Of a stretch of 44,114 nucleotides of DNA, positions 3,328-44,077 are shown one piece after another. The stretch comes from a virus, in IMG/VR virus record IMGVR_UViG_3300046792_000331, positions 1 through 44,114 of that record. One strand, given 5' to 3'. The first letter of the stretch is position 1, and every line of letters starts with the position of its first letter. The notes beneath the pieces were generated by a model. It did not search any database. It was given only the letters and a program-made list of their open reading frames with translations, and was not told the DNA's origin. The position numbers and the translations under genes were made by a program.

Positions 3328-4872
3328 TCAGTACGAGAACTGGGCATCGTTGAAGCCCTGGCCGCCAACGTCGAATCGGAACATGGTCGGCGGGTTATCG
3401 AGGCCGCCACCCTGGAAGGCGCCCTGGTCGAAGCCCTGGCCGGACACGTCGAACGTGAACGGGTTGGTCACCACGGCCGGGATCTTCTCCACGCCGAACG
3501 TGGTCACGTGCTCGGCGCCGCCCTGGCCGATCGTGTGCTGGATCTGCTCGATGTAGCAGTCCGCATCCAAGCCGGTCAGCGACTCGGTCAGATGCACCCG
3601 GTCCGACAGGTTCCGGCTGATGCACTCGGCCAGCCGCGCCGCGCTGCCGGCGCCGCGCATCGTCACCTGCAGCGTCGGCAGCCGCTCGGCGCGCTTCGCG
3701 ACGATCAGCTGCAGGATCGCCTGCGCGTCGTAGATACCCGCCCACACCGGCAGCCGGCCGTCCGCCAACGACTTGCGGCCGTGGTTGTAGATGCTGACCG
3801 CGTCCTCGACGGTGACCGTGATGCTGGTCGACTGGATCGCCTGCGCCCGCAGGGCGACGTCCTGCACGATCGAGTCGCCCGTGGCGGTGATCGAGATGAC
3901 CGTCGACTGGCCCGACGTGCGCGACAGGCTCATCGAGACGCTGCCGGACACGAGGGTGTAGTCGGTGTCCTGCACGGGTGCGATCGCATTGATGAACGGC
4001 TGCGACGCCCGCGCGGTGACGTTGAACGTGGTCCCGTTCGCGATGGTGATCTGCCCCTGGCTGGACCACACCTGGGACGCTGCCGCGTCGATGGTGTGCA
4101 GCGGCACCTCGGTGGAGATCGAGTTGACGACCTCTTTCCAGCCGGCGTTGTAGGTCACCGGGTCGGAGATGCAGGGCTCGGTGCCCGACGACCGCCAGGT
4201 CGCCTGCGAGGTCAGCGACGCGGACCGGGTCAGCCGGTGGTGCCGGTCGCGGAACACGATCTGGCCCAGCGAGTTCACCGTGATCAGCGCCGACGGCCCG
4301 TCCGAGTCGACAAGCTCCAGCAGCGCGTCGAACGCGTCGGCCTCGCTCAGCCACCAGTACGGCAGGTAGGAGACGCCCGGGTCGATGTCGCGGGCGGTCG
4401 CCGACCAGCCGATCGCGTCGAGGATGTAGCCGATCGCGTCGCCGGTGCGGATGCCCTGGTAGAGCGGCGTGCTGATGGTGACGCCACGGAAGGAGCCGAG
4501 CGCGTCGATGCAGGTCGCCGGCACGGACTGGTCGTTGATGCCGGGCCGGATGTCGAGGTCGTCGAGGTAGCCGGAGTAGAGGACCGTCGAGGTCGCGCCG
4601 ACGGTGGCCTGCAGCTGCAGGTGCTTGCCGGGCGTGACGAACCCTGCGATCGGCGAGCTCGTGTTCTCCGGCGAGTAGTCGCGGCTTCGGTTGTCGAGTT
4701 CGAACTGGGCCTCGCCCGGGTCGATCGGCGAGAACTGGCGGGCCTGGTTCCGGCCGTACTTCACGACGACCGGGGTGCGCTGGTCGAGGGTTCGGGCGGT
4801 GACATCGTCGTTGGTGACGTCGGAGAAGCCGTTGCCCTGCCAGTCGATCTGCAGCGTGTACCGGGCAGCCAT
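3328..4872 (-). CDS. Minor tail protein (tail-tip / baseplate-hub type)
   Basis: A 514-residue beta-rich protein directly downstream of the tape measure, sharing a TGATG stop/start overlap with it. The N-terminal region (LQIDWQGNGF, then FSPIDPGEAQFELDNRSRDYSP) matches the pattern of actinophage minor tail proteins that occupy the distal tail/tail-associated position. It probably forms the tail tip hub on which fibres sit. A C-terminal repeat (VSGQGFDQGAF and VGGQGFNDAQF) looks like a short duplicated beta motif. Confidence 0.8.
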   Translation of the reverse strand: MAARYTLQIDWQGNGFSDVTNDDVTARTLDQRTPVVVKYGRNQARQFSPIDPGEAQFELDNRSRDYSPENTSSPIAGFVTPGKHLQLQATVGATSTVLYSGYLDDLDIRPGINDQSVPATCIDALGSFRGVTISTPLYQGIRTGDAIGYILDAIGWSATARDIDPGVSYLPYWWLSEADAFDALLELVDSDGPSALITVNSLGQIVFRDRHHRLTRSASLTSQATWRSSGTEPCISDPVTYNAGWKEVVNSISTEVPLHTIDAAASQVWSSQGQITIANGTTFNVTARASQPFINAIAPVQDTDYTLVSGSVSMSLSRTSGQSTVISITATGDSIVQDVALRAQAIQSTSITVTVEDAVSIYNHGRKSLADGRLPVWAGIYDAQAILQLIVAKRAERLPTLQVTMRGAGSAARLAECISRNLSDRVHLTESLTGLDADCYIEQIQHTIGQGGAEHVTTFGVEKIPAVVTNPFTFDVSGQGFDQGAFQGGGLDNPPTMFRFDVGGQGFNDAQFSY

Positions 4873-7800
4873 CAGATCTTCCCCTTGCGGCGGAGATCAT
4901 CGATGGACGCGGCCAGCCAGCCCTGGACCTCCATGCGCGAGCCGATCACGCCGTGGTTCTCCAGCACCACGGTCACGCCTCCCCCGTCGCTGCCCGCGTT
5001 CTGCCACATCGGGGTGACCCGTTCGGGCTGGTAGTTCTCGCCGAAGGAGTAGGTGCGGCCGGACGCGCCGACGCCGAAGATCGGCTCGGTGATGGTGCCG
5101 CCGTTCTTCATCGCCCAGTGGTCGTGGGCGTTGCCGCCAGCGAAGTTGTGCTGGTTCTCGATCAGCGCCGAGTAGCGGTGCCTGGAGCCGTTGTGGATGT
5201 TGAGCGATTGCCACGGGGTGATCAGTTCCTTCGTGGCGCGCATGAAGTGCAGGTTGATCCACTCGGCGAGTGGCTTCGACGGAGCGAAGTCGACCGCCCG
5301 GCCGAAGCCGTGGTAGCTCTTGTTGCCCGTCAGCGTGATCGCGCCGGGCCGGTAGTCCGAGTAGATCGGCATGCCTGGAAACGCCATCCGGACGGCGGCT
5401 TCCATCCATTTATAGCCCGGGCCGCCGCTACCGCCGGGAGCCGAGAAGAACGGCGACGGCACCTTCGTCTTGCTCGCGTTCACCGGGTACGGCCAGACCA
5501 TGCCGCCGCCGGCGTAACCGGGCCACTGGCCGGTCGCGTTCATGTAGTCCAGCGCGCCCGGCTTGGCGCTCTCCAGCGGAGCACGTGCGCTCTTGTTCAC
5601 CACGAACTCGTCGGCGTGCACGACCCCGGCCGGCTGATACTTCGCGCCGGGTCCGGTCCAGCCGCCGCCGGCGAAACCCGGCCCGTCGCCGGCGCCGTTG
5701 AGCCGGCCGATGGTGTTGGCACTCTTCAGCGCCTGCTGCATCGCCGACAGCTTCCGCAGCTCCGCCTCGACCTTGCCCTGCCCGGTGACGTTCAGGTTCG
5801 CCGCGTACGGGCCCGCGAAGTGGTTCGCCGCGGTGTACGCGTCGTCGAGCTGCTTCTTCGCGGCCACCGCGCCCGGCGCCGTCGCCTTCGCCTCATACGT
5901 CCCGTCGTACTGGTCGGCAGCCTTCTTCGCCGACTTGAACTGGCCCTCGAGGTTCTTAATCTCGGTCTTGGACAGCCCGGCCGCGCGCAGTGTCGCGTAC
6001 AGCGACGGCGTCATCTTCCCGTTGAACGTCTGTCCCAGCGACCCGACCGCGCCCTGCAGACCGATCGCCGCCACCGCCAGATCGCGGGTCGCCTGCTTGG
6101 CTTCCTTGCTGCTGGCCCCGTGTTCCTTGGTCGCCTTGGTCGCGGCCTTCTGCGCGTCGGCGAGACCCTCCTGGGCCTTAAGCAGCCCGAAGACTGGGTC
6201 GGTCTCCTGCTTCATCATGTCGCTGAGCTGGGACAGGGCGTCCCGCTGGCCGTTCGTGGCCGCGGTCGCCGCCTCGGTGGCGGTCTTGTACTTCTTCTGA
6301 TCCTGCGCGCCAGCGCTGAGCTGGCCGTTCAGGTCGCCAGTGGCTGTCGCGGCGGCCATCGTCGAGGCCTTCGACGTCTCGAGGGCTGCCGCGTAGGCGG
6401 GGAACTGCTTGCGGACCTCCTCGAGGCTGACGCCGTTGGTGGCCAACTCCTTGGACAGCGCCTCGAACGCGGCCTGTGCACCGGAGGTGTTGCCGCCGGA
6501 CACCATCTGCGCCAGAGCGGTATCGACCGCCCCGATGCGCTCCTGCGTCTTCGCTAGTGACTCGTTCGTGCCCTTGAGTCCCGGGATGATCGCCTCGAGG
6601 CCGCCCTCGAGATTGCGGGCCCAGTCCTTGCGGTTGTTGCTCGTGTCGGCGACCAGGTCGAAGGTCTTCTTCAGGTCGCCCATGTTGTCGCCGAGGACCC
6701 GGGACGCCTCGCCGGCGGTCTTCCCGGATTTCGCGTATTGCTCCAGGCCGACACTGAGTGCGTCGAGCTGCGGATTCAGGTCCTTCTGGAAGTGGCTGAC
6801 AACCTCGCCCGCGATCTGCAGGGCGGCGAAGACGAGACCGATCTTGCCTGCTGCGGCCGAGAGCCGTCCCATTCCCGCTGCAGCGTTTGCGGCGGCCGGG
6901 CCCATCGCCTCCAGCTCGAGGCGGACAGCGGCCGTCGTCTTGCGCAGCTTGATCCAGCCCGCGCCGAGCACCAGCGCCGCACCGCCGAGCGCGGCCATCA
7001 CCGTGATGGTGCTGCCGATCCACGGGGGAAGTTCGGAGAACGCGTTGACCAGCCCGTTGACGGCCTTGACCAGGACGCGCAGGCCACCGTTCGCGCCGGA
7101 GCCCGCCTGGATCGCCAGGGTTTCGATTGAGCCTTTCAGGCGTTCTATGTCGCCGGCGAGGTTGTCGGTCTGGATCCGGGCGGTCTCGGCCGCGTAGCCT
7201 TGGTCGTTGACCTTGTCGATCCATGTCTGGATGCCGGCCGCGCCCTGCTGGTAGAGGACGTTCGCGGTACGGATCGCGTCGGAGCCGAAGATCTGCGCCA
7301 GCGCGGCGTCGCGCTGCGCCTGGGTCAGGCCGCCGAGCTTGGTCTTGAGCTGCTCGGCCAGGTTGGTGATGCCGACGAACTTGCCCTGGGCGTCGTAGGC
7401 GGCGATGCCCAGGTCGTCCATCAAGGCCTTGGTCTTGTCCGCCGGGTTCGCCAGCGACAGCAGCATCTGCTTGAACGACGTACCCGCATCGGAGCCAGTA
7501 AGACCCGCCGAGGCGAAGGCGGCGAGCGTGCCCGTGGTGTCCTCCACCGACAGGCCGAACTGGTGCGCGACCAGGCCGCTCTGATTGAGCGCGTAGCCCA
7601 GGTCGTGCACGGAACCCTGGGCCTTGCCGGCGCCGGCGGCCAGCAGATCCGCGATGTGCGGGATGTCCTTGCCCGACAGCTTGAACTGCGTCATGGCGCT
7701 CGCCGCGGTCTCGGCGGCCTCGCCGACGGACAACTGACCGGCCGCTGCGAGCGACAGCGCGCCCTTCAGTCCTCCGTTGAGCACATCGGCGGTAGATACG

Positions 7801-9236: not shown

Positions 9237-9731
9237 CTAGGCGACCGCGGCCCGGAGCGACGGGCCGGTGCCCGCAGCGCCGGCTGTGATCTTCATCGGG
9301 ATCTCGTATCGCTCGACCGAGTTCGGCTCCGGGTCCATGCGCGCGACCTCGCCACACAGCGCCGGGTAGACCTCGACGCCCTGGGTCGACGTCCAGGCGG
9401 TCGCCTGGGCGACCGACCGGCGGATCACGATGAACCCGGCGGTATCGCGGATCAGCGTGGTGAAGATCGTGTCGCCCGACGCCTGCTTCTTCAGCCGCAG
9501 ACGGGTGTTGGAGAAGGACGCCCGGCCGTTGACGTTGGAGGTGAACACCGACGCCAGCGAGGACGTGTCGACGTCGGCAGTGTCCGGCTGGAACCCGGAC
9601 AGGCCATCGGCGGTCAGCGTCGACGTCAGGTCGATGCCCGCGTTCAGTTCGGTCGTGGTCGGGGCGTTCTGGTTGCTGATGCTCGTGACCCAGTAGACCC
9701 TGGTCTTGCCATCAGCGGGGACGTCGGCCAT
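9237..9731 (-). CDS. Major tail tube protein
   Basis: A 164-residue protein of the expected size and position, directly before the chaperones. It opens with KTRVYWVTSISNQNAPTTTELNAG, resembling actinophage tube proteins in which a short lead precedes P-T-x-x-E-L-N-A-G. The middle and end are beta-rich with the pattern expected of the stacked hexameric ring fold. It is followed by a strong terminator, consistent with a highly expressed structural gene. Confidence 0.85.
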   Translation of the reverse strand: MADVPADGKTRVYWVTSISNQNAPTTTELNAGIDLTSTLTADGLSGFQPDTADVDTSSLASVFTSNVNGRASFSNTRLRLKKQASGDTIFTTLIRDTAGFIVIRRSVAQATAWTSTQGVEVYPALCGEVARMDPEPNSVERYEIPMKITAGAAGTGPSLRAAVA

Positions 9732-9743
9732 TCACCTACTCCT

Positions 9744-10052
9744 TTACTTGTCGCCGCTGGTGGCGGACTTGGCGGGAGAACTCTTGGGCGCCGGCCCGTC
9801 GACCGGCTCGTCGTAGCCGTCGGGTCCGGACGGGAACCAGCCGAGGCCCGCGTGCAGCAGGACGGCCTCGTGGTTCATGACGCCCTTGCCGCCGTGCACC
9901 TCGTGGCGGACCCACTGGAACTCCTGGCCGGTCGGCTCGGTCGTCTCCGACCAGCCGCGGACCTTCGTCCACTCGTCGCGCGCCTCGGCGCCGACGACGC
10001 GGGCCTTCACGCCCTCCACATCGGCGATCCAGTACTCGGTCTTGTCGGTCAT
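9744..10052 (-). CDS. Conserved actinophage protein of unknown function (neck/tail region)
   Basis: A 102-residue protein from ATG at 10052. The segments WIADVEGVKARVVGAEARDEW and GWSETTEPTGQEFQWVRHEVHGG are a pattern I recall from actinophage proteins located next to the tail tube gene. A Pro/Ala/Ser-rich tail ends the protein. It may join tail tube and head, or assist assembly. An upstream in-frame start at 10106 is less likely because the added residues are low complexity. Confidence 0.7.
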   Translation of the reverse strand: MTDKTEYWIADVEGVKARVVGAEARDEWTKVRGWSETTEPTGQEFQWVRHEVHGGKGVMNHEAVLLHAGLGWFPSGPDGYDEPVDGPAPKSSPAKSATSGDK

Positions 10053-36768: not shown

Positions 36769-37436
36769 CGCGAGGCTCCGTTCACCAGTCGAAGGCCAGA
36801 GGCGTCGCGCCGGGCGGACCGGACGCGGTCGCACCAGCGGGTCATCTCATCCAGGAAGGGCCGCACGGCCTGGTCGAAGTCGACCGCGTACACCTCGGCG
36901 ATACGGTCGACGTCGAACTGCCAGAGGTCGTCGGCGCGGCAGACGATGGTCGAGAAGTTGTTCCGGAAGCGCTGCGCCGTGCCCTCCATCTCGGCGTCGA
37001 GCTGACGGTCGAGCGGGGTGAAGTCGGGCACGGAGGTCTCGTCCTTGGGGATGGGATTTGGCTGAGTGGCCGGACGCTCCCGACCGTCGAGAGAGATCAC
37101 CTTCGTCGGCTCTTCGACTGCCACATTTGTGGCAGTCGAGAGATCGCGGCGAACGGTCTCCTTCGAGACGCCGAGCGCAGCGCCGATCGCACGCTGGCTC
37201 ATGCCGCCATGCCGCAGCTCGGCCACCATCGCCGGGCGGTCGCCGGTCGGCACGCGCACGTCGCTCAGCTCGGTCGAGCAGTAGGCCTGCCAGGAGCCAT
37301 ACCCGAGCACCTTGTCGGCGCGGCCCTCGAATGCCCGCTTGATCTTCGGAAGAAGGCCGTCTAGGTCGCGGCGGATCTCGGCTGTCAGTTCCCGTGCCTC
37401 GTCGGCAGTCAACTCGGTGGTGGCGATGTCGGTCAT
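36765..37436 (-). CDS. HTH DNA-binding protein, early operon second gene
   Basis: A 223-residue protein from ATG at 37436. N-terminal helical region (IRRDLDGLLPKIKRAFEGRADKVLGYGSWQAYCSTEL), then an HTH (AMVAELRHGGMSQRAIGAALGVSKETVRRDLS), and a C-terminal helical domain after a linker with KVISLDGRERPA. The general arrangement resembles ParB-like or antirepressor-type HTH proteins of actinophages. It probably regulates phage transcription or partition. Confidence 0.75.
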   Translation of the reverse strand: MTDIATTELTADEARELTAEIRRDLDGLLPKIKRAFEGRADKVLGYGSWQAYCSTELSDVRVPTGDRPAMVAELRHGGMSQRAIGAALGVSKETVRRDLSTATNVAVEEPTKVISLDGRERPATQPNPIPKDETSVPDFTPLDRQLDAEMEGTAQRFRNNFSTIVCRADDLWQFDVDRIAEVYAVDFDQAVRPFLDEMTRWCDRVRSARRDASGLRLVNGASR

Positions 37437-37693
37437 GCCGCGCTCGCGGCGGTCGGCGTCTCGACCAGTCGGGCAACGGGGATGTTCAGCTCGGTGGCGA
37501 TCCGCACCAGCTCGGCGGCCTCGAAGCCGATGGAGCCGGCGAACCGCTTGCTGATCTGCGGCTGGGAGACGCCGAGCATCTCGGCGAGATCGTCTTGGCC
37601 CTTGCCGGCGCGGATCATTTCGGCCTTGACGTTCTGGCCGATCTGTCGCCGAATCGGGTCGACGTCCCGCGAGGGGCGGATGTCGTCTGTCAT
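37433..37693 (-). CDS. Cro-like XRE-family regulator, first early gene
   Basis: An 86-residue protein. ATG at 37693 is preferred; the in-frame ATG at 37705 lies within the probable -10 element. HTH: IGQNVKAEMIRAGKGQDDLAEMLGVSQPQISKRFAGSIGFEAAELVRIATELNI, a complete five-helix XRE domain. It is the first gene leftward and divergent from the repressor, the classic position of Cro. Probably shuts off repressor synthesis. Confidence 0.85.
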   Translation of the reverse strand: MTDDIRPSRDVDPIRRQIGQNVKAEMIRAGKGQDDLAEMLGVSQPQISKRFAGSIGFEAAELVRIATELNIPVARLVETPTAASAA

Positions 37694-37702
37694 GGCGTAG
37701 AG

Positions 37703-37730
37703 CATGTATCAAATAGCGATACGGTGTCAA
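37703..37730 (-). promoter_or_regulatory. Early leftward promoter with operator dyad
   Basis: On the minus strand TTGACA (37730-37725) and TACATG (37708-37703) are 16 bases apart. GTATCGCTATTTGATAC, a dyad with 5-bp arms, occupies the spacer and would place repressor or Cro over the promoter. The expected start lies just before ATG 37693. Confidence 0.6.
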
Positions 37731-38244: not shown

Positions 38245-39096
38245 ATGCGCAAAGATCTAGCCCCGGCGCAGCCTCGGGAAATGCAGATCATCGACGCTTA
38301 CATCGAGCACCTCCGCCGGGCCGGATGCACCCAGGCCACCCTCGAAGGCCGCTACGAGATCCTCCACCGGCTCAACCGCGAGCTTCCGTGCGGCATCGGC
38401 CAGACCAACACCGAGGAGCTGTCGCGGTGGCTCTACCGGGACGAGTGGTCGACCAACACGCGGGCGACGTACTGGCGCGCCATCCGGTCCTTCTACGGTT
38501 TCGCCGCTGACGCCGAGGACCCCTGGATCGACCGCAACCCCACCGAGAAGATGGAACCCGTCCAGACCATGCGCGGCGTACCGCGGCCGGTGACCGACCA
38601 GCAGTTGAGCCGCATCCTCACCGAGGCCCCCGAGCCGCTGCGCATCTGGTGCCTGCTGGCCGCGTATCAGGGCTTGCGCTGCATCGAGATCTCCCGGCTC
38701 GACCGGGAGCACGTCACCGAGCAGAACCTGTTCGTCGTGCGCGGCAAGGGCGATCGGCCGCGCGTGCACGACACGTACCCCGCAGTGTGGTCGGCCGTGA
38801 AGGACCTGCCTCGCGGGCCGATCGCGGTCGGCGACGACGGGGTTCGGCTGACGCCGTTCGAGGTGAGCCTGCGCGCCGCTCACCACTTCCGCCGGCAGAT
38901 GAACATGCCGGGGGTCTCGCTGCATCGCCTGCGTCACTGGCTCGGTGTCACGGCGCAACGCAAGTACCGGGACATCCGGGTGACGCAGGCGATGCTGGGG
39001 CACGTCTCGCTGTCGAGCACGCAGATCTACACGATGGGCAGCGAGGAGCAGCAGCGCGAGGCGCGTTCTACTCTTCCGAGGTTCGACGGCGAATGA
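38245..39096 (+). CDS. Tyrosine recombinase (integrase)
   Basis: A 283-residue protein from ATG at 38245. The N-terminal SAM-like core-binding domain (about 12-105) precedes the catalytic domain: R145 in GLRCIEISRL, K169 in RGKGDRPR, H227-R-L-R230 in SLHRLRHWLG, H253 in LGHVSLSSTQ and nucleophile Y262. All active-site residues are present. It lacks the larger arm-binding domain of lambda Int. It should integrate and excise the phage, together with an AlpA-like factor nearby. Confidence 0.92.
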   Translation: MRKDLAPAQPREMQIIDAYIEHLRRAGCTQATLEGRYEILHRLNRELPCGIGQTNTEELSRWLYRDEWSTNTRATYWRAIRSFYGFAADAEDPWIDRNPTEKMEPVQTMRGVPRPVTDQQLSRILTEAPEPLRIWCLLAAYQGLRCIEISRLDREHVTEQNLFVVRGKGDRPRVHDTYPAVWSAVKDLPRGPIAVGDDGVRLTPFEVSLRAAHHFRRQMNMPGVSLHRLRHWLGVTAQRKYRDIRVTQAMLGHVSLSSTQIYTMGSEEQQREARSTLPRFDGE

Positions 39097-39625: not shown

Positions 39626-39835
39626 ATGGTCAAGTTGGATCTCATGGGAACGGTTGAGATCCGGCAGCGCCTCGGCATCAGCAAGGCCCGCGTCCACCAG
39701 ATCGTGCACCAGAAGGGCTTCCCTGACCCGGTGGCCCAGGTCTCCGGCGTAACCATCTGGCTCGCATCCGATGTCGAAGCCTGGATCGCGCGCAACCGGC
39801 CGGCACCTCAAGACTCCTCGAGCTTCGACACGTAG
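39626..39835 (+). CDS. AlpA/excisionase-like HTH regulator (paralog A)
   Basis: A 69-residue protein. The winged-HTH core GTVEIRQRLGISKARVHQIVHQKGFPDPVAQVSGVTIWLASDVEAWIARNRP is the MerR-like AlpA/Xis pattern (F-P-x-P then W-x-x-x-D-V-E-x-W). It is clearly related to the protein at 41172-41387. It may serve as excisionase or as an activator of integrase. Convergent 28-base overlap with the next gene. Confidence 0.82.
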   Translation: MVKLDLMGTVEIRQRLGISKARVHQIVHQKGFPDPVAQVSGVTIWLASDVEAWIARNRPAPQDSSSFDT

Positions 39836-40005
39836 AAGCGGCCCGGCTCGTACTCCTCGATCAGCCCCTGCTCCGCCAGCGCGTGCAGCACAGAGTTCCC
39901 CAGGACCGGCTCCTCGTCATCGGCCAGGTCGTCCTCGCTCAGGCCGGCGGCACGCTCGGAAGCCTCGATCGCGCGGCTCGTCAGCGGCCAGTTCTCTTCG
40001 TCCAC
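39808..40005 (-). CDS. Small acidic protein
   Basis: A 65-residue protein from GTG at 40005 with AAGGAGA six bases upstream. Very acidic (LSEDDLADDEEP), then NSVLHALAEQGLIEEYEPGRFYVS. The second half resembles a fragment of a winged-helix (HALxxxGLIxxYxxGRFYV). It might antagonise a DNA-binding partner or mimic DNA. Not recognised. Confidence 0.6.
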   Translation of the reverse strand: MDEENWPLTSRAIEASERAAGLSEDDLADDEEPVLGNSVLHALAEQGLIEEYEPGRFYVSKLEES

Positions 40006-40087
40006 GGTGCTCTCCTTCGCTGCATCGAAGGGCAGAAGCCCGGGCCGGGCCATGCAGGGCGCCGACCCGGACCTCGTTCAAGGGGGG

Positions 40088-41053
40088 TCAGCAGCCGCCC
40101 GGGCCGCCGTACCGGAAGGAACGGATGTTGCCCGCGGTGCCGAGCTGCTCGGCGTTCCACTCGTTCTGGATGCCCGACGGGTCTTCCCGTACGAACAGGT
40201 TCGTATTGGCCGCCGAGATGCCCTGGAACTGGGCACTGCCGAAGCTCGCGCCCGCGGTCGGGGTCGCCAGCGTCGGCGAGCCCATGTCAGTGCACACGGT
40301 CGACGACGGCATCTCACCGGCGGCGACCTCGCCGAACAGCTGGCCGTAGTCCTCGTTGGTGAACGTGGTCACCGACGGGGTCGCGGACGTCCAGATGGTG
40401 TCCGGAAAATAGCCCACCCAGTTACCGGTCGTGCCGGCCGTGTTGCCGACCCACATCCACCAGCCCGGCGAGGCCATGCCGGAGGAGAAGTGCTCGATGC
40501 CGACCTTCATGTTGGTCGAGATGACGTCGCCGAGGTTCGGCGTCACGCCGGCCACGTCGACCCAGCCGCAGCCGTTGTAGCAGCTGCCGTTTCCGTTGAC
40601 CCAGTGGTAGCCGAACAGGCGCGGCTGGGTGTCGCTGTTGACGACCGGGTCTTCGGTGATGCCGGCTTCGACGATCTGGGCGCTGCCGCCGACGGTCTTC
40701 TGCGCGCTCACCTCGGCCAGGGTGTGGCCGTCGTGGACGGTGTCCAGCACGGGCGACAGCGCGGAGATGTTCCCGTACGTGCCGGTCGGCAGAGTGGTGG
40801 TGAACCCCTGCGAGCCGACGTTGTAGTAGAAGCAGGTCGTCGAGCATGCCGTCAGCGGGGTGACCGCGCCGGGCTTCGCCGGGCGGCCCTTGGGCGCCTT
40901 CACGCCGGCGGGCTTGCTTGAGGCGTGCATGGTCCCGCCGGGGGTGCGCACGTGGCCGGCGGCGGCCGATGCCGGGGAGCTGTTCAGTCCGGCCAGGCCG
41001 GCGGCCAGGAGCAGCAGGGCCGCGACGCGGGCCGTGATCGTCTTGGGGTGAAT
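40088..41053 (-). CDS. Secreted neprosin-type glutamic peptidase, apparent ATT start
   Basis: The frame reaches back to a textbook signal peptide only if translation starts at ATT 41053: HPKTITAR, then VAALLLLAAGLAGL, then SSPASA and cleavage before AAGH. AAGGA lies 7 bases upstream; no ATG, GTG or TTG is available there. The mature protein shows the neprosin (DUF239) pattern: GHTLAEVSA, IVEAGI (E129), TQPRLFGYHWVNG, PGWWMWVG, NWVGYFPDTIW and YGQLFGEV (E242), followed by DMGSP. E129 and E242 match the paired catalytic glutamates. Predicted extracellular protease of about 290 mature residues. Probably lysogenic-conversion cargo. Confidence 0.82.
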   Translation of the reverse strand: MHPKTITARVAALLLLAAGLAGLNSSPASAAAGHVRTPGGTMHASSKPAGVKAPKGRPAKPGAVTPLTACSTTCFYYNVGSQGFTTTLPTGTYGNISALSPVLDTVHDGHTLAEVSAQKTVGGSAQIVEAGITEDPVVNSDTQPRLFGYHWVNGNGSCYNGCGWVDVAGVTPNLGDVISTNMKVGIEHFSSGMASPGWWMWVGNTAGTTGNWVGYFPDTIWTSATPSVTTFTNEDYGQLFGEVAAGEMPSSTVCTDMGSPTLATPTAGASFGSAQFQGISAANTNLFVREDPSGIQNEWNAEQLGTAGNIRSFRYGGPGGC

Positions 41054-41089
41054 GGGAGTTTCCTTCCCTAGGGACCTCTTTTCCTCGGC

Positions 41090-41135
41090 ACCTTACGCGG
41101 CGTCATGACGCGGCGTCACACGTTCATACGTATGA
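41090..41135. promoter_or_regulatory. Promoter/operator region of the neprosin-type gene and AlpA-like gene
   Basis: On the minus strand TAAGGT (41095-41090) is a good -10, with TGACGC about 17 bases upstream, and would give a 30-base leader to the ATT start. It lies across two tandem 11-bp repeats, ACGCGGCGTCA at 41095-41105 and 41108-41118. Next comes a perfect 12-bp palindrome TCATACGTATGA (41124-41135). Its half TCATACGT recurs at 37732-37739 beside the early promoter, so a common regulator may bind both. Confidence 0.55.
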
Positions 41136-41158
41136 CGGACAGTCGGATATACGAGACT

Positions 41159-41164
41159 TAGCGT
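41159..41164 (+). promoter_or_regulatory. -10 element TAGCGT for leaderless AlpA-like gene
   Basis: TANNNT seven bases before ATG 41172. This supports that ATG over the in-frame GTG at 41163, which lies within or at the element, and indicates leaderless translation. Confidence 0.55.
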
Positions 41165-41171
41165 GCGAGTC

Positions 41172-41387
41172 ATGGCAGACCGTCGTGACCTTCCGCGCCT
41201 CATGGGGCAGCAGGAGATCCGCGACCGGCTCGGCTACACCCGCCAGCACACCTGGATCATCATCGGCCAGAAGGGCTTCCCGGACCCGGTGTACGTGCTG
41301 GCCATGGGCCGAATCTGGCTCACCGAGGACGTCGAGGCGTGGATCCGCGAGCACCGGCCCGAGCTCGACGAAGAGCCGGAGAGCTAG
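41172..41387 (+). CDS. AlpA/excisionase-like HTH regulator (paralog B)
   Basis: A 71-residue protein: MGQQEIRDRLGYTRQHTWIIIGQKGFPDPVYVLAMGRIWLTEDVEAWIREHRPELDE. It shares the I-R-x-R-L-G, Q-K-G-F-P-D-P-V and IWL-x-x-DVEAWI blocks with paralog A (39626). It is divergent from the neprosin-type gene and convergent with the next HTH gene (four-base overlap). Likely regulator or second directionality factor. Confidence 0.82.
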   Translation: MADRRDLPRLMGQQEIRDRLGYTRQHTWIIIGQKGFPDPVYVLAMGRIWLTEDVEAWIREHRPELDEEPES

Positions 41388-41726: not shown

Positions 41727-42509
41727 GTGACGACGATGACCGGTTCCCCCGTCGACGAGCTGATGCCCGCCGCCCGGGACCTGGCCGCCCGGAAGCGGGC
41801 CGTGCCGCCGAAGCGCAAGATCCAAGAGGCGCTCTCGATCGGCTTCCCGAAGGCCTCCGAGATTCACGAGCGGCTCGTGGCCGAACACTCGGAACGGCAG
41901 CGGATCCGCCGCCGCCAGTTCCGCATGATCGCGGGCCGGAAGCACCCCCGCCCGGCCATCCTGGCCCGCTTCCGGCCCGCCCCCATCCCACCCGAATCGG
42001 CAACACCCATCCCCGTGGCATTCCCCCAGGTAGCGGCGGTCACGGACGCACCTCCCCCGGCGTCCGTGACCCCGCTCCCGAAGCGCGTCTCACGCTGGCC
42101 GCTGCTGCTGCTCGCCGCGCCCGCGTTCGTCGCGATCTGGGCAGGCTGGGTAGACCTCGGCCGGCTCACCGGCTTCGGCCAGGTGCACCCGCTTCCGGGT
42201 ATCGCCGACCGCTTCTCGATCAACACGGCGATCACCCTGCCTGTCGGCCTCGAGGCCTACGCGGCGTACGCGCTGTACGTGTGGCTGTCCCGCGCCGGAA
42301 GCGCCCGGGCGCGCACCTTCGCCCGCTTCTCGGCGATCGGCTCGCTGCTTCTCGGCTTCGCCGGCCAGGCCGCCTACCACCTGATGATCGCGCGCGGGAT
42401 GACCGCTGCCCCGTGGCCCATCACCCTCGCCGTGTCCGGCGTGCCCGTCGCCGTCCTCGGCATGGGCGCCGCGCTCTGGCACCTCGTCCACACTCCCGAG
42501 GAGAACTGA
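41727..42509 (+). CDS. DUF2637/SpdB-like membrane protein with N-terminal HTH-like region
   Basis: A 260-residue protein. Residues about 25-75 are basic and helical (KRKIQEALSIGFPKASEIHERLVAEHSERQRIRRRQFRMI), resembling DNA-binding segments of related proteins. After a Pro-rich linker come four membrane helices with WPLLLLAAPAFVAIWAGWVDLGRLTGFGQVHPLPGI, INTAITLPVGLEAYAAYALYVWL and FSAIGSLLLGFAGQAAYHLM, the DUF2637 signature. Such proteins are linked to intramycelial spread (Spd) of actinomycete plasmids and integrative elements. GTG start at 41727; ATG 41736 is possible. Confidence 0.8.
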   Translation: MTTMTGSPVDELMPAARDLAARKRAVPPKRKIQEALSIGFPKASEIHERLVAEHSERQRIRRRQFRMIAGRKHPRPAILARFRPAPIPPESATPIPVAFPQVAAVTDAPPPASVTPLPKRVSRWPLLLLAAPAFVAIWAGWVDLGRLTGFGQVHPLPGIADRFSINTAITLPVGLEAYAAYALYVWLSRAGSARARTFARFSAIGSLLLGFAGQAAYHLMIARGMTAAPWPITLAVSGVPVAVLGMGAALWHLVHTPEEN

Positions 42510-42757
42510 TGCCCAAGCTCGAAGTGATCACCGTCGAATGGGTCAGCGACGAGGAGGTGCACATTTACATCCCCGGCCAGCACGGCACCTGGTTTGCCCG
42601 GCCGGTCCCCATCCTGCGGCGCGGCGAGGTCGAGGAGGCGTGGGAGCTGAACAGCCTCGACGAGGTCGAGGGCTACTACGACAAGCCCGAGGACGCCTTC
42701 GGGGCGGTCGGCGAGAAGTTCGAGCTGCCCATCGTGATCACGAAGGAGCGCGAGTAA
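42509..42757 (+). CDS. Small acidic protein of the five-gene operon
   Basis: An 82-residue protein; ATG overlaps the preceding TGA (TGATG). Beta-rich start (EVITVEWVSDEEVHIYIPGQHGTWFARPVPILRRGEVEEAWELNSLDEV) and acidic end. Soluble, no membrane segment. It lies between the DUF2637 protein and a second small protein. Unrecognised; perhaps a cytoplasmic partner of the membrane components. Confidence 0.7.
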   Translation: MPKLEVITVEWVSDEEVHIYIPGQHGTWFARPVPILRRGEVEEAWELNSLDEVEGYYDKPEDAFGAVGEKFELPIVITKERE

Positions 42758-42996
42758 TGGGAGTAACGATGACGCTGCAGCGCTACCGGCTGAAGATCTT
42801 CGACGGGCAGTACGAGGTGCTGCACAAGTGGCTGTTCTACCTCGACGCCGACCTCGACTCCGCGTACGCCCCCAGCCTGCTCAACGAGCGCCTGGTCGCG
42901 CTCACCCGGCAGGCGACGGCCGCGAACGAGCCGATGGACGCGCCGCGCCTCGAGGTGTGGGACGGCGACGTCAAGGTGCTGGACTGGGCAGGCTGA
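42757..42996 (+). CDS. Second small soluble protein of the five-gene operon
   Basis: A 79-residue protein; ATG overlaps the preceding TAA (TAATG). TLQRYRLKIFDGQYEVLHKWLFYLDADLDSAYAPSLLNERLVALTRQATAANEPMDAPRLEVWDGDVKVLDW is a mixed alpha/beta pattern with clear strands at both ends. No known family. Tight coupling implies stoichiometric production with its neighbours. Confidence 0.7.
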   Translation: MGVTMTLQRYRLKIFDGQYEVLHKWLFYLDADLDSAYAPSLLNERLVALTRQATAANEPMDAPRLEVWDGDVKVLDWAG

Positions 42997-43556
42997 TGAT
43001 CCTCGCCTACTCCGCACCGCCTCCGACCGCGGCCGACCACCATTCGATGTCGCCGACCGCGACCGCACTGGTGCTGCTGCTCGCCCTGGTCATCGACTAC
43101 ATGTCCGTCGGCCCCAACTCCATCCGGGACCGGATCGCGTTCCTGCTCGCCGTGCCGGCCGTCCGCGAGGGCTTCAACGGCTCCCCGCTCGACGGGTGGA
43201 CGGTGGACACGCTGCGCCAGCTGGTCCAGTCGCTGCTCGACGCGACGAAGGGCGCGTACATCGCCGGGGCGTCGATCAACCTGCTGATCGGCGGGCTGGT
43301 CGGCATCCTGTGGATCTACACGGTCGGCTGTCTGCTGCCCGTCAAGTTCTCGCGCAAGCTCGGCCGGTTCGCGACCCTCACGTTCCCGCAGTCGGCGCTG
43401 TTCCGGCTCAACGGGAAGCTGTGGATCGCGGCGATCCTGCTGGGCATGCTGGCCGACCTGCCGCGCGGCATCGTCGGTGAGCTGACCCTCGGCTCGGTCA
43501 ACTTCCTGACCGGCATCGTCGCCCCCATCCCCACCATGCTCTTCGGGAACGCCTGA
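42996..43556 (+). CDS. Polytopic membrane protein of the five-gene operon
   Basis: A 186-residue protein; ATG overlaps the preceding TGA. Hydrophobic segments at about residues 21-37, 43-54, 90-112, 141-152 and 165-185. A basic loop (PVKFSRKLGRFATLTF) follows the main helix pair. No transporter or enzyme motif. Probably an integral partner of the HTH-bearing membrane proteins on either side. Confidence 0.7.
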   Translation: MILAYSAPPPTAADHHSMSPTATALVLLLALVIDYMSVGPNSIRDRIAFLLAVPAVREGFNGSPLDGWTVDTLRQLVQSLLDATKGAYIAGASINLLIGGLVGILWIYTVGCLLPVKFSRKLGRFATLTFPQSALFRLNGKLWIAAILLGMLADLPRGIVGELTLGSVNFLTGIVAPIPTMLFGNA

Positions 43557-44077
43557 TGATCACTCTGCCTGACGCGCCGGACCCGCACCGCAGCTGGGCG
43601 TGGCTCGCCGCCGCGCTCGCCGCGTACGGGATCTTCCTGCTCTTCACCCCGCTCATCCGCAAGATCCGCAACCCCTCCCCTCCCCCAGCGATCGAAGGTG
43701 TCAAGCCCAAGAAGGTGCAGGCCACGGTCGGTGTCACCGAGGATGAACCCGCTGAACCCGCCGAGATCGGCTGGTGGGGACGCATCATCGAGAAGGGCGG
43801 CGTCCGCTTCCGCCAAGCCCAGGAGATCATGGCAACCGGCGGCCTCGCCGAACCGCCCGAGGACAACGAGGTGGACGTGCCGCTCGACGACGAGCCGGAC
43901 GAGACCGAGGACCAGGGCGAGGCGATCGAGGAGTACATCGCCCGGGCGCGCGGTCTGCGGGTGCCGTACAACGCGATCGTGCGGGTCGTCGTCGACCACT
44001 ACGGCGTCTCCGAGTCGACCGCGAAGCGCCGCATCCGGGAGGTCGACGAGGCGCGCCGGCCACCCCGGGCGGCATAG
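43556..44077 (+). CDS. Membrane-anchored HTH protein
   Basis: A 173-residue protein; ATG overlaps the preceding TGA. One transmembrane helix (about residues 14-34, WAWLAAALAAYGIFLLFTPL), a basic stretch, an acidic linker (EDNEVDVPLDDEPDETED) and a C-terminal HTH: EEYIARARGLRVPYNAIVRVVVDHYGVSESTAKRRIREVDEAR. DNA-binding domain tethered to the membrane. Together with the first gene it gives two potential DNA-membrane tethers. It ends 16 bases before the junction terminator. Confidence 0.72.
   Translation: MITLPDAPDPHRSWAWLAAALAAYGIFLLFTPLIRKIRNPSPPPAIEGVKPKKVQATVGVTEDEPAEPAEIGWWGRIIEKGGVRFRQAQEIMATGGLAEPPEDNEVDVPLDDEPDETEDQGEAIEEYIARARGLRVPYNAIVRVVVDHYGVSESTAKRRIREVDEARRPPRAA

Follow-up and report, generated by a model that had tools for sequence, protein, structure and literature searches.

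What would a temperate phage gain from an exported peptidase of the neprosin family, and how would the gene be translated if its reading frame offers no usual start codon where the protein appears to begin? Both questions are raised by a gene in IMG/VR virus record IMGVR_UViG_3300046792_000331, of which a stretch of 44,114 bases (69% G+C), referred to here as the window, was analyzed in full. Neprosin family glutamic peptidases are familiar from plant enzymes, such as that of the pitcher plant. The explanation that we favor, and hold to be reasonably probable as a whole, is that we are dealing with a moron: a single gene that has its own promoter and is transcribed as a unit by itself, set between an AlpA-type gene and a gene for a 65-aa protein, in the accessory zone on the integrase side of a temperate actinobacteriophage genome. 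Its product would be a neprosin-family glutamic peptidase, exported by the Sec route and working outside the membrane. Translation would begin at ATT with fMet, aided by the sequence AAGGA, and, as IF3 rejects such codons, the output would be low and would rise when the fidelity of IF3 drops. The most likely job of the enzyme would be the trimming of surface or wall proteins of the lysogen or the infected cell, which would alter adsorption, aggregation, or nutrition. The features discussed below are listed in Table 1.

Table 1. Positions of the features of the neprosin locus and its surroundings in the window.
Feature	Position	Strand	Remarks
HTH repressor-like gene	37433..37705	-	
Integrase	38281..39096	+	
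Second AlpA-like HTH gene	39626..39835	+	53% to first
65-aa acidic protein gene	39808..40005	-	GTG 40005, SD GAAGGAG; downstream of neprosin
Inserted cassette (promoter + neprosin)	40080..41198	-	absent from L150
Neprosin-family secreted glutamic peptidase gene	40088..41053	-	321 codons, ATT 41053 to TGA 40088
E242 codon	40328..40330	-	aligned with catalytic E297 of Nepenthes neprosin
E129 codon	40667..40669	-	aligned with catalytic E188 of Nepenthes neprosin
Sec-type signal peptide, residues 1-30 (predicted)	40964..41053	-	inferred cleavage between ASA and AAG
ATT, inferred start codon	41051..41053	-	aligned with L143 TTG start; CAC next in both
AAGGA, Shine-Dalgarno-like	41061..41065	-	ends 7 nt before ATT
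Putative actinobacterial housekeeping-type promoter, TGACG-N18-TAAGGT	41090..41118	-	about 37 nt from start codon
AlpA-like HTH gene	41202..41387	+	divergent neighbour; orthologue flanks L150 empty site

The insertion site and the settings of phage neprosins

Genes for a large terminase, a portal protein, an integrase, repressor-like proteins, and an amidase endolysin are found in the window, and the phage is a temperate actinobacteriophage, a virus of actinobacteria. Judged by the terminase, the annotated phage nearest to it is Arthrobacter phage Hum25 (70%); among uncultivated viruses it is G001, with 92% identity in this protein. The contiguous gene order in G001, as well as in L150, a stretch of a 45.6-kb relative, indicates that the ends of the window would join in the zone between the lysis genes and the integrase. 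Rfam and tRNA scans over the window gave no matches. Five genes run rightward at 41727-44077 (260, 82, 79, 186, and 173 aa), and the members of this run that were scanned had no match in Pfam or PHROG.

The neprosin gene is situated on the integrase side, in a zone that also carries a repressor-like gene, in agreement with a sequence-only reading of this DNA that had placed it in a lysogeny region. In L150, where one lysis-side protein is 97% identical to that of the window and the integrase 57%, the genes for the AlpA-like protein, the 65-aa protein, and the integrase follow each other in the same order, with no neprosin. A profile of the neprosin branch (A5), which in a control matched in all six other viral contigs carrying neprosin, found none in the record of L150 and none in a further 22 viruses related by terminase. 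It took the place of a search with the PF03080 family, which was empty for 45 terminase relatives but missed its control as well. The DNA is homologous to that of L150 as far as position 41199, where the AlpA gene starts, and again from 40079, nine bases past the neprosin stop codon; between these points, about 1.1 kb of the window and about 115 nt of L150 are unmatched. By sequence comparison with L150, the locus is a moron cassette, whose promoter and gene came, by insertion or exchange, to stand between two near neighbors of that relative; an assembly chimera is made less likely by the homology of the flanks on either side. The 65-aa gene, considered as a dedicated partner of the neprosin, was rejected as such because it occurs in the neprosin-free L150. 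The two AlpA-like HTH genes enclose both the cassette and the 65-aa gene, and there is a single copy at this place in G001 and L150.

The pattern TGACR-N16-18-TARRRT, picked post hoc with the putative promoter site already seen, has a single match in the window compared to 0.12 expected, and simple scans for plain sigma-70 promoters and terminators gave no match. In Hum25, an esterase and an O-acetyltransferase are also located between the lysis genes and the integrase. The neprosin gene shares with such morons of temperate phages its accessory character, its position in the interval between the lysis cassette and the integrase, and its absence from relatives, but a peptidase of the neprosin family was not found among annotated phages.

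A survey of the phage contexts of homologs, proposed in the sequence-only reading, yielded six further IMG/VR contigs that carry a member of the family with phage genes around it, in contexts that are unrelated. In L143 (IMG/VR 3300046796_000431) the gene is found between those of the major tail protein and the tape measure, in L148 just past the lysis region and adjoining a lipase-like gene, in L146 ahead of the portal, and in L147 after a primase and a QueC-like gene. The copy of L144 is part of a 125-kb contig with phage-type nucleases, and that of L145, in a stretch which also includes head genes, is near genes for a UDP-glucose dehydrogenase and a family-2 glycosyltransferase. The dehydrogenase and the glycosyltransferase of L145, the latter a membrane protein (3512-4714 and 4949-6862), are a few kb from the neprosin and may represent a phage-borne surface polysaccharide pathway. 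In L147 (9174-10828), the QueC-like gene is directly upstream of the neprosin, itself truncated where the contig ends; the missing part has a match at the opposite end (22-240), so that a circular record is probable. In L144 (about 9650-9750), a tRNA-like 3' end (GGTTCGACTCCTGTC...) shortly ahead of the neprosin start suggests insertion beside a tRNA gene.

An exported enzyme would act on proteins outside the membrane, and its possible substrates should be proteins at the surface or in the wall of its own host, those of neighbors, or food. The settings on the lysogeny side in the window, in the tail module in L143, at the lysis end in L148, and near surface-sugar genes in L145 suggest surface remodeling as a common theme. 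Lysogenic conversion, put forward in the sequence-only reading, is plausible for the window, where the gene is on the lysogeny side, but not as a general role across phages: with its L143 copy in a set of tail genes, the gene may be of benefit in other ways than through lysogeny. We consider it rather unlikely that the gene serves the lytic cycle in place of lysogenic conversion, as a secreted late protein that loosens surface or wall proteins in the course of release and dispersal. The tail-module placement of the L143 copy and that of the L148 copy, right after the lysis region and beside the lipase-like gene, would fit such a role, whereas the window gene, preceded by its own putative promoter, is on the integrase side, away from the late operon. 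The trimming of surface proteins by the product of a moron is the reading that we retain.

Fold and active site of the protein

The coordinates and frame of the open reading frame, as well as both glutamates, proved correct on checking, and its earlier assignment as a neprosin-type peptidase is borne out by a family match and by the predicted fold. The protein matches PF03080 in Pfam (E 5.8e-11, 42.6 bits) above the curated cut-off of 22 bits, and the six other phage copies likewise match this family. An AlphaFold (AF2) model built with 40 relatives has a mean pLDDT of 80, with low values mainly across the first 68 residues. In a Foldseek search with this model, crystal neprosin was the first match and the best one in the PDB (E 2.5e-11), and VIA gave Z 24.3 against neprosin over 227 residues, with a far lower value (15.7) for the next family. 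Compared with the individual structures of Nepenthes neprosin (PDB 7zu8, 7zva, 7zvb, and 7zvc), the model has Z of 23.6-24.3. Neprosin entries are also recovered by a profile of the window's branch (E 1e-25), and the model has the neprosin β-sandwich fold. A viral structure library gave only weak matches to it, mostly with plant-virus coat proteins.

The window protein has in common with Nepenthes neprosin, a glutamic prolyl endopeptidase, the fold, the two catalytic glutamates at corresponding sites, and synthesis as a secreted precursor. It differs in being phage-encoded, with about 22% identity, and in having no activation domain matched by Pfam; PF03080 is its sole Pfam domain, and residues 31-70, where an activation or pro-domain was looked for, are of low confidence in the model. 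Cleavage after proline belongs to the plant enzyme, whereas the window protein is known from its sequence and model.

Both E129 and E242 are aligned with the catalytic pair and invariant in all 40 sequences, in which H110 and E114 are further invariant polar residues. The spacing of 15 residues between Q173 and E188 in the plant enzyme is equal to that between E114 and E129 in the window protein, which makes E114 the counterpart of Q173, and S116 that of W175. In plant neprosin these two residues were assigned to the oxyanion hole, and the Q173A and W175A variants are totally inactive (PMC9343461). Throughout the bacterial and phage branch both are replaced, the equivalent of Q173 by Glu (40 of 40 sequences) and that of W175 by Ala, Ser, or Thr, and the active site of the branch thus differs from that of the plant enzyme. 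The earlier statement that the neprosin motifs, with both glutamates, are intact holds for the catalytic glutamates but not for the plant-type site.

Peptidase activity of the window protein is likely, as judged from these residues, whereas prolyl specificity is not to be assumed, since with E114 and S116 in the place of the oxyanion-hole residues neither activity nor a preference for proline is guaranteed. It is unlikely that the branch kept the neprosin fold without peptidase activity, for example as a binding protein that lost the oxyanion hole. The replacement of the two residues whose substitution kills the plant enzyme (PMC9343461) speaks for such a loss, but the invariance of the catalytic glutamates, H110, and E114 suggests an active site that has been retained in an altered form.

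The start codon, the signal peptide, and IF3

No ATG, GTG, or TTG codon is present in frame from the upstream stop codon TAA (about 41096) to GTG 40951. The coding signal of the 34 codons from ATT to this GTG is +13.5 bits, a value not attained in any of 1137 out-of-frame open windows of equal length, and falls to -8.0 bits in the 13 codons preceding ATT 41053. The first residue of the closest relative, encoded by another phage (L143, 54% identity), falls on this ATT in the protein alignment; the start is TTG-CAC in L143, with GGAGG ahead, and the window reads ATT-CAC. The AAGGA seven bases before the ATT, pointed out earlier, is indeed present. A Shine-Dalgarno-type 5-mer at 5-9 nt precedes just 3 of the 143 ATTs in the window, and the leader of the gene has unusually little structure, with better folding in 195 of 200 shuffles. 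The usual start codons are unable to account for the N terminus of the window protein. The onset of the coding signal, the N termini of the homologs, the alignment with L143, and the spacing and open leader make it probable that translation starts, as had been claimed, at ATT 41053, a very rare start codon. ATC 41041 would preserve the signal peptide, but as a start it was rejected, its distance of 19 nt from the Shine-Dalgarno sequence being too large.

Read from the ATT, the protein begins with MHPKTITARVAALLLLAAGLAGLNSSPASA, followed after the predicted cleavage site by AAG, and simple scoring finds a basic n-region, a hydrophobic core, and an A-X-A site. This predicted signal needs a start at ATT or at ATC 41041 and is lost with GTG 40951, as the sequence-only reading had concluded for the usual codons. 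An N terminus of the signal type is found in all 59 relatives with a readable start, and Cys158 and Cys162 are invariant. The window protein would thus be exported via Sec and act outside the membrane. With the L143 protein it shares the N-terminal layout and His2; L143 differs in its TTG start and in the location of the gene in the tail module.

Among the 59 relatives, translation starts at ATG in 33, at GTG in 15, and at TTG in 11, and none uses ATT. That the true start is ATG or another usual codon, with the ATT a consensus error or a rare variant in an otherwise ordinary secreted phage neprosin, is in our view decidedly unlikely. One G-to-T change converts ATG to ATT, and the gene comes from a single uncultivated record of which a second copy was not found; a pattern search with N at the third base revealed no near-identical virus with another third base at the start codon. 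Consensus errors at one named base are rare, however, the remainder of the reading frame is intact, and L143 has TTG rather than ATG, two changes away from ATT. The ancestral start was then not necessarily ATG, which weakens a miscall without removing it. The survey of homolog starts proposed earlier has a divided outcome, with no ATG at the aligned codon of the closest relative, but also no ATT among the homologs examined. Translation from GTG 40951, the first usual start codon of the frame, which would yield a leaderless intracellular protein acting, for example, in the cell or the virion, is very improbable, since no Shine-Dalgarno sequence was found before it, the 34 upstream codons are coding, every relative with a readable start has a signal, and the invariant cysteines fit an exported protein.

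Rare start codons repressed by IF3 are documented for sigR (GTC) and infC (ATC) of Streptomyces and for infC (ATT) of E. coli (PMC5472188). The window gene has a rare start codon in common with these, but they are host genes with measured regulation by IF3 (PMC5472188), whereas the start of the window gene is predicted from sequence. By analogy with them, its expression may be low and controlled by IF3. If the ATT start is true, this is a rare viral gene whose dose depends on the IF3 of the host, and one in which standard gene finders would miss the signal peptide and misplace the protein in the cytosol.

Phage and bacterial relatives

The neprosin-domain proteins of actinobacteria (Actinoplanes, Streptomyces, and Catenulispora) are of the same branch as the window protein, sharing the motifs CYNGCG and FGEV, the signal peptide, and E114, E129, and E242, but they are only about 30-43% identical to it and have usual start codons. 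The one of these whose context was read, L090, is chromosomal. In a maximum-likelihood tree, the seven viral copies cluster with two bacterial ones; the pair formed by the window and L143 has full support, whereas support for the wider viral group is weak and its branches are long. Separate capture of each phage neprosin from its host is not favored, since two label changes suffice to explain the tree, although the long branches weaken this point. The phage neprosins tested had no match in PHROGs, NCBIfam, or 50,697 annotated phage records, and scans with single sequences, run against viral and genome collections as well as annotated phages, revealed no close relatives.

In the literature searched, no paper links neprosin to phages, and the bacterial and viral branch is uncharacterized. 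The phage branch has a changed active site, is moron-borne, and includes one case with a probable ATT start. We can tentatively suggest, as a possibility that goes further, that actinobacterial phages have their own lineage of exported glutamic peptidase with a remodeled site (an invariant third glutamate and no plant-type oxyanion hole), passed as a moron among unrelated phages, with a dose set here by an AUU start under the IF3 of the host. A phage lineage with an altered site would offer a direct way to probe the third glutamate, as well as what a phage gains from an exported protease.

A 45% identical neprosin is encoded at positions 1-936 of L089, near ABC-transporter-like genes, in a contig binned as Saccharibacteria, and is either a real copy or a binning error. 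The acidobacterial relatives L130 and L133 belong to this neprosin branch, from the rest of which a long branch separates them, so the family is not limited to actinobacteria.
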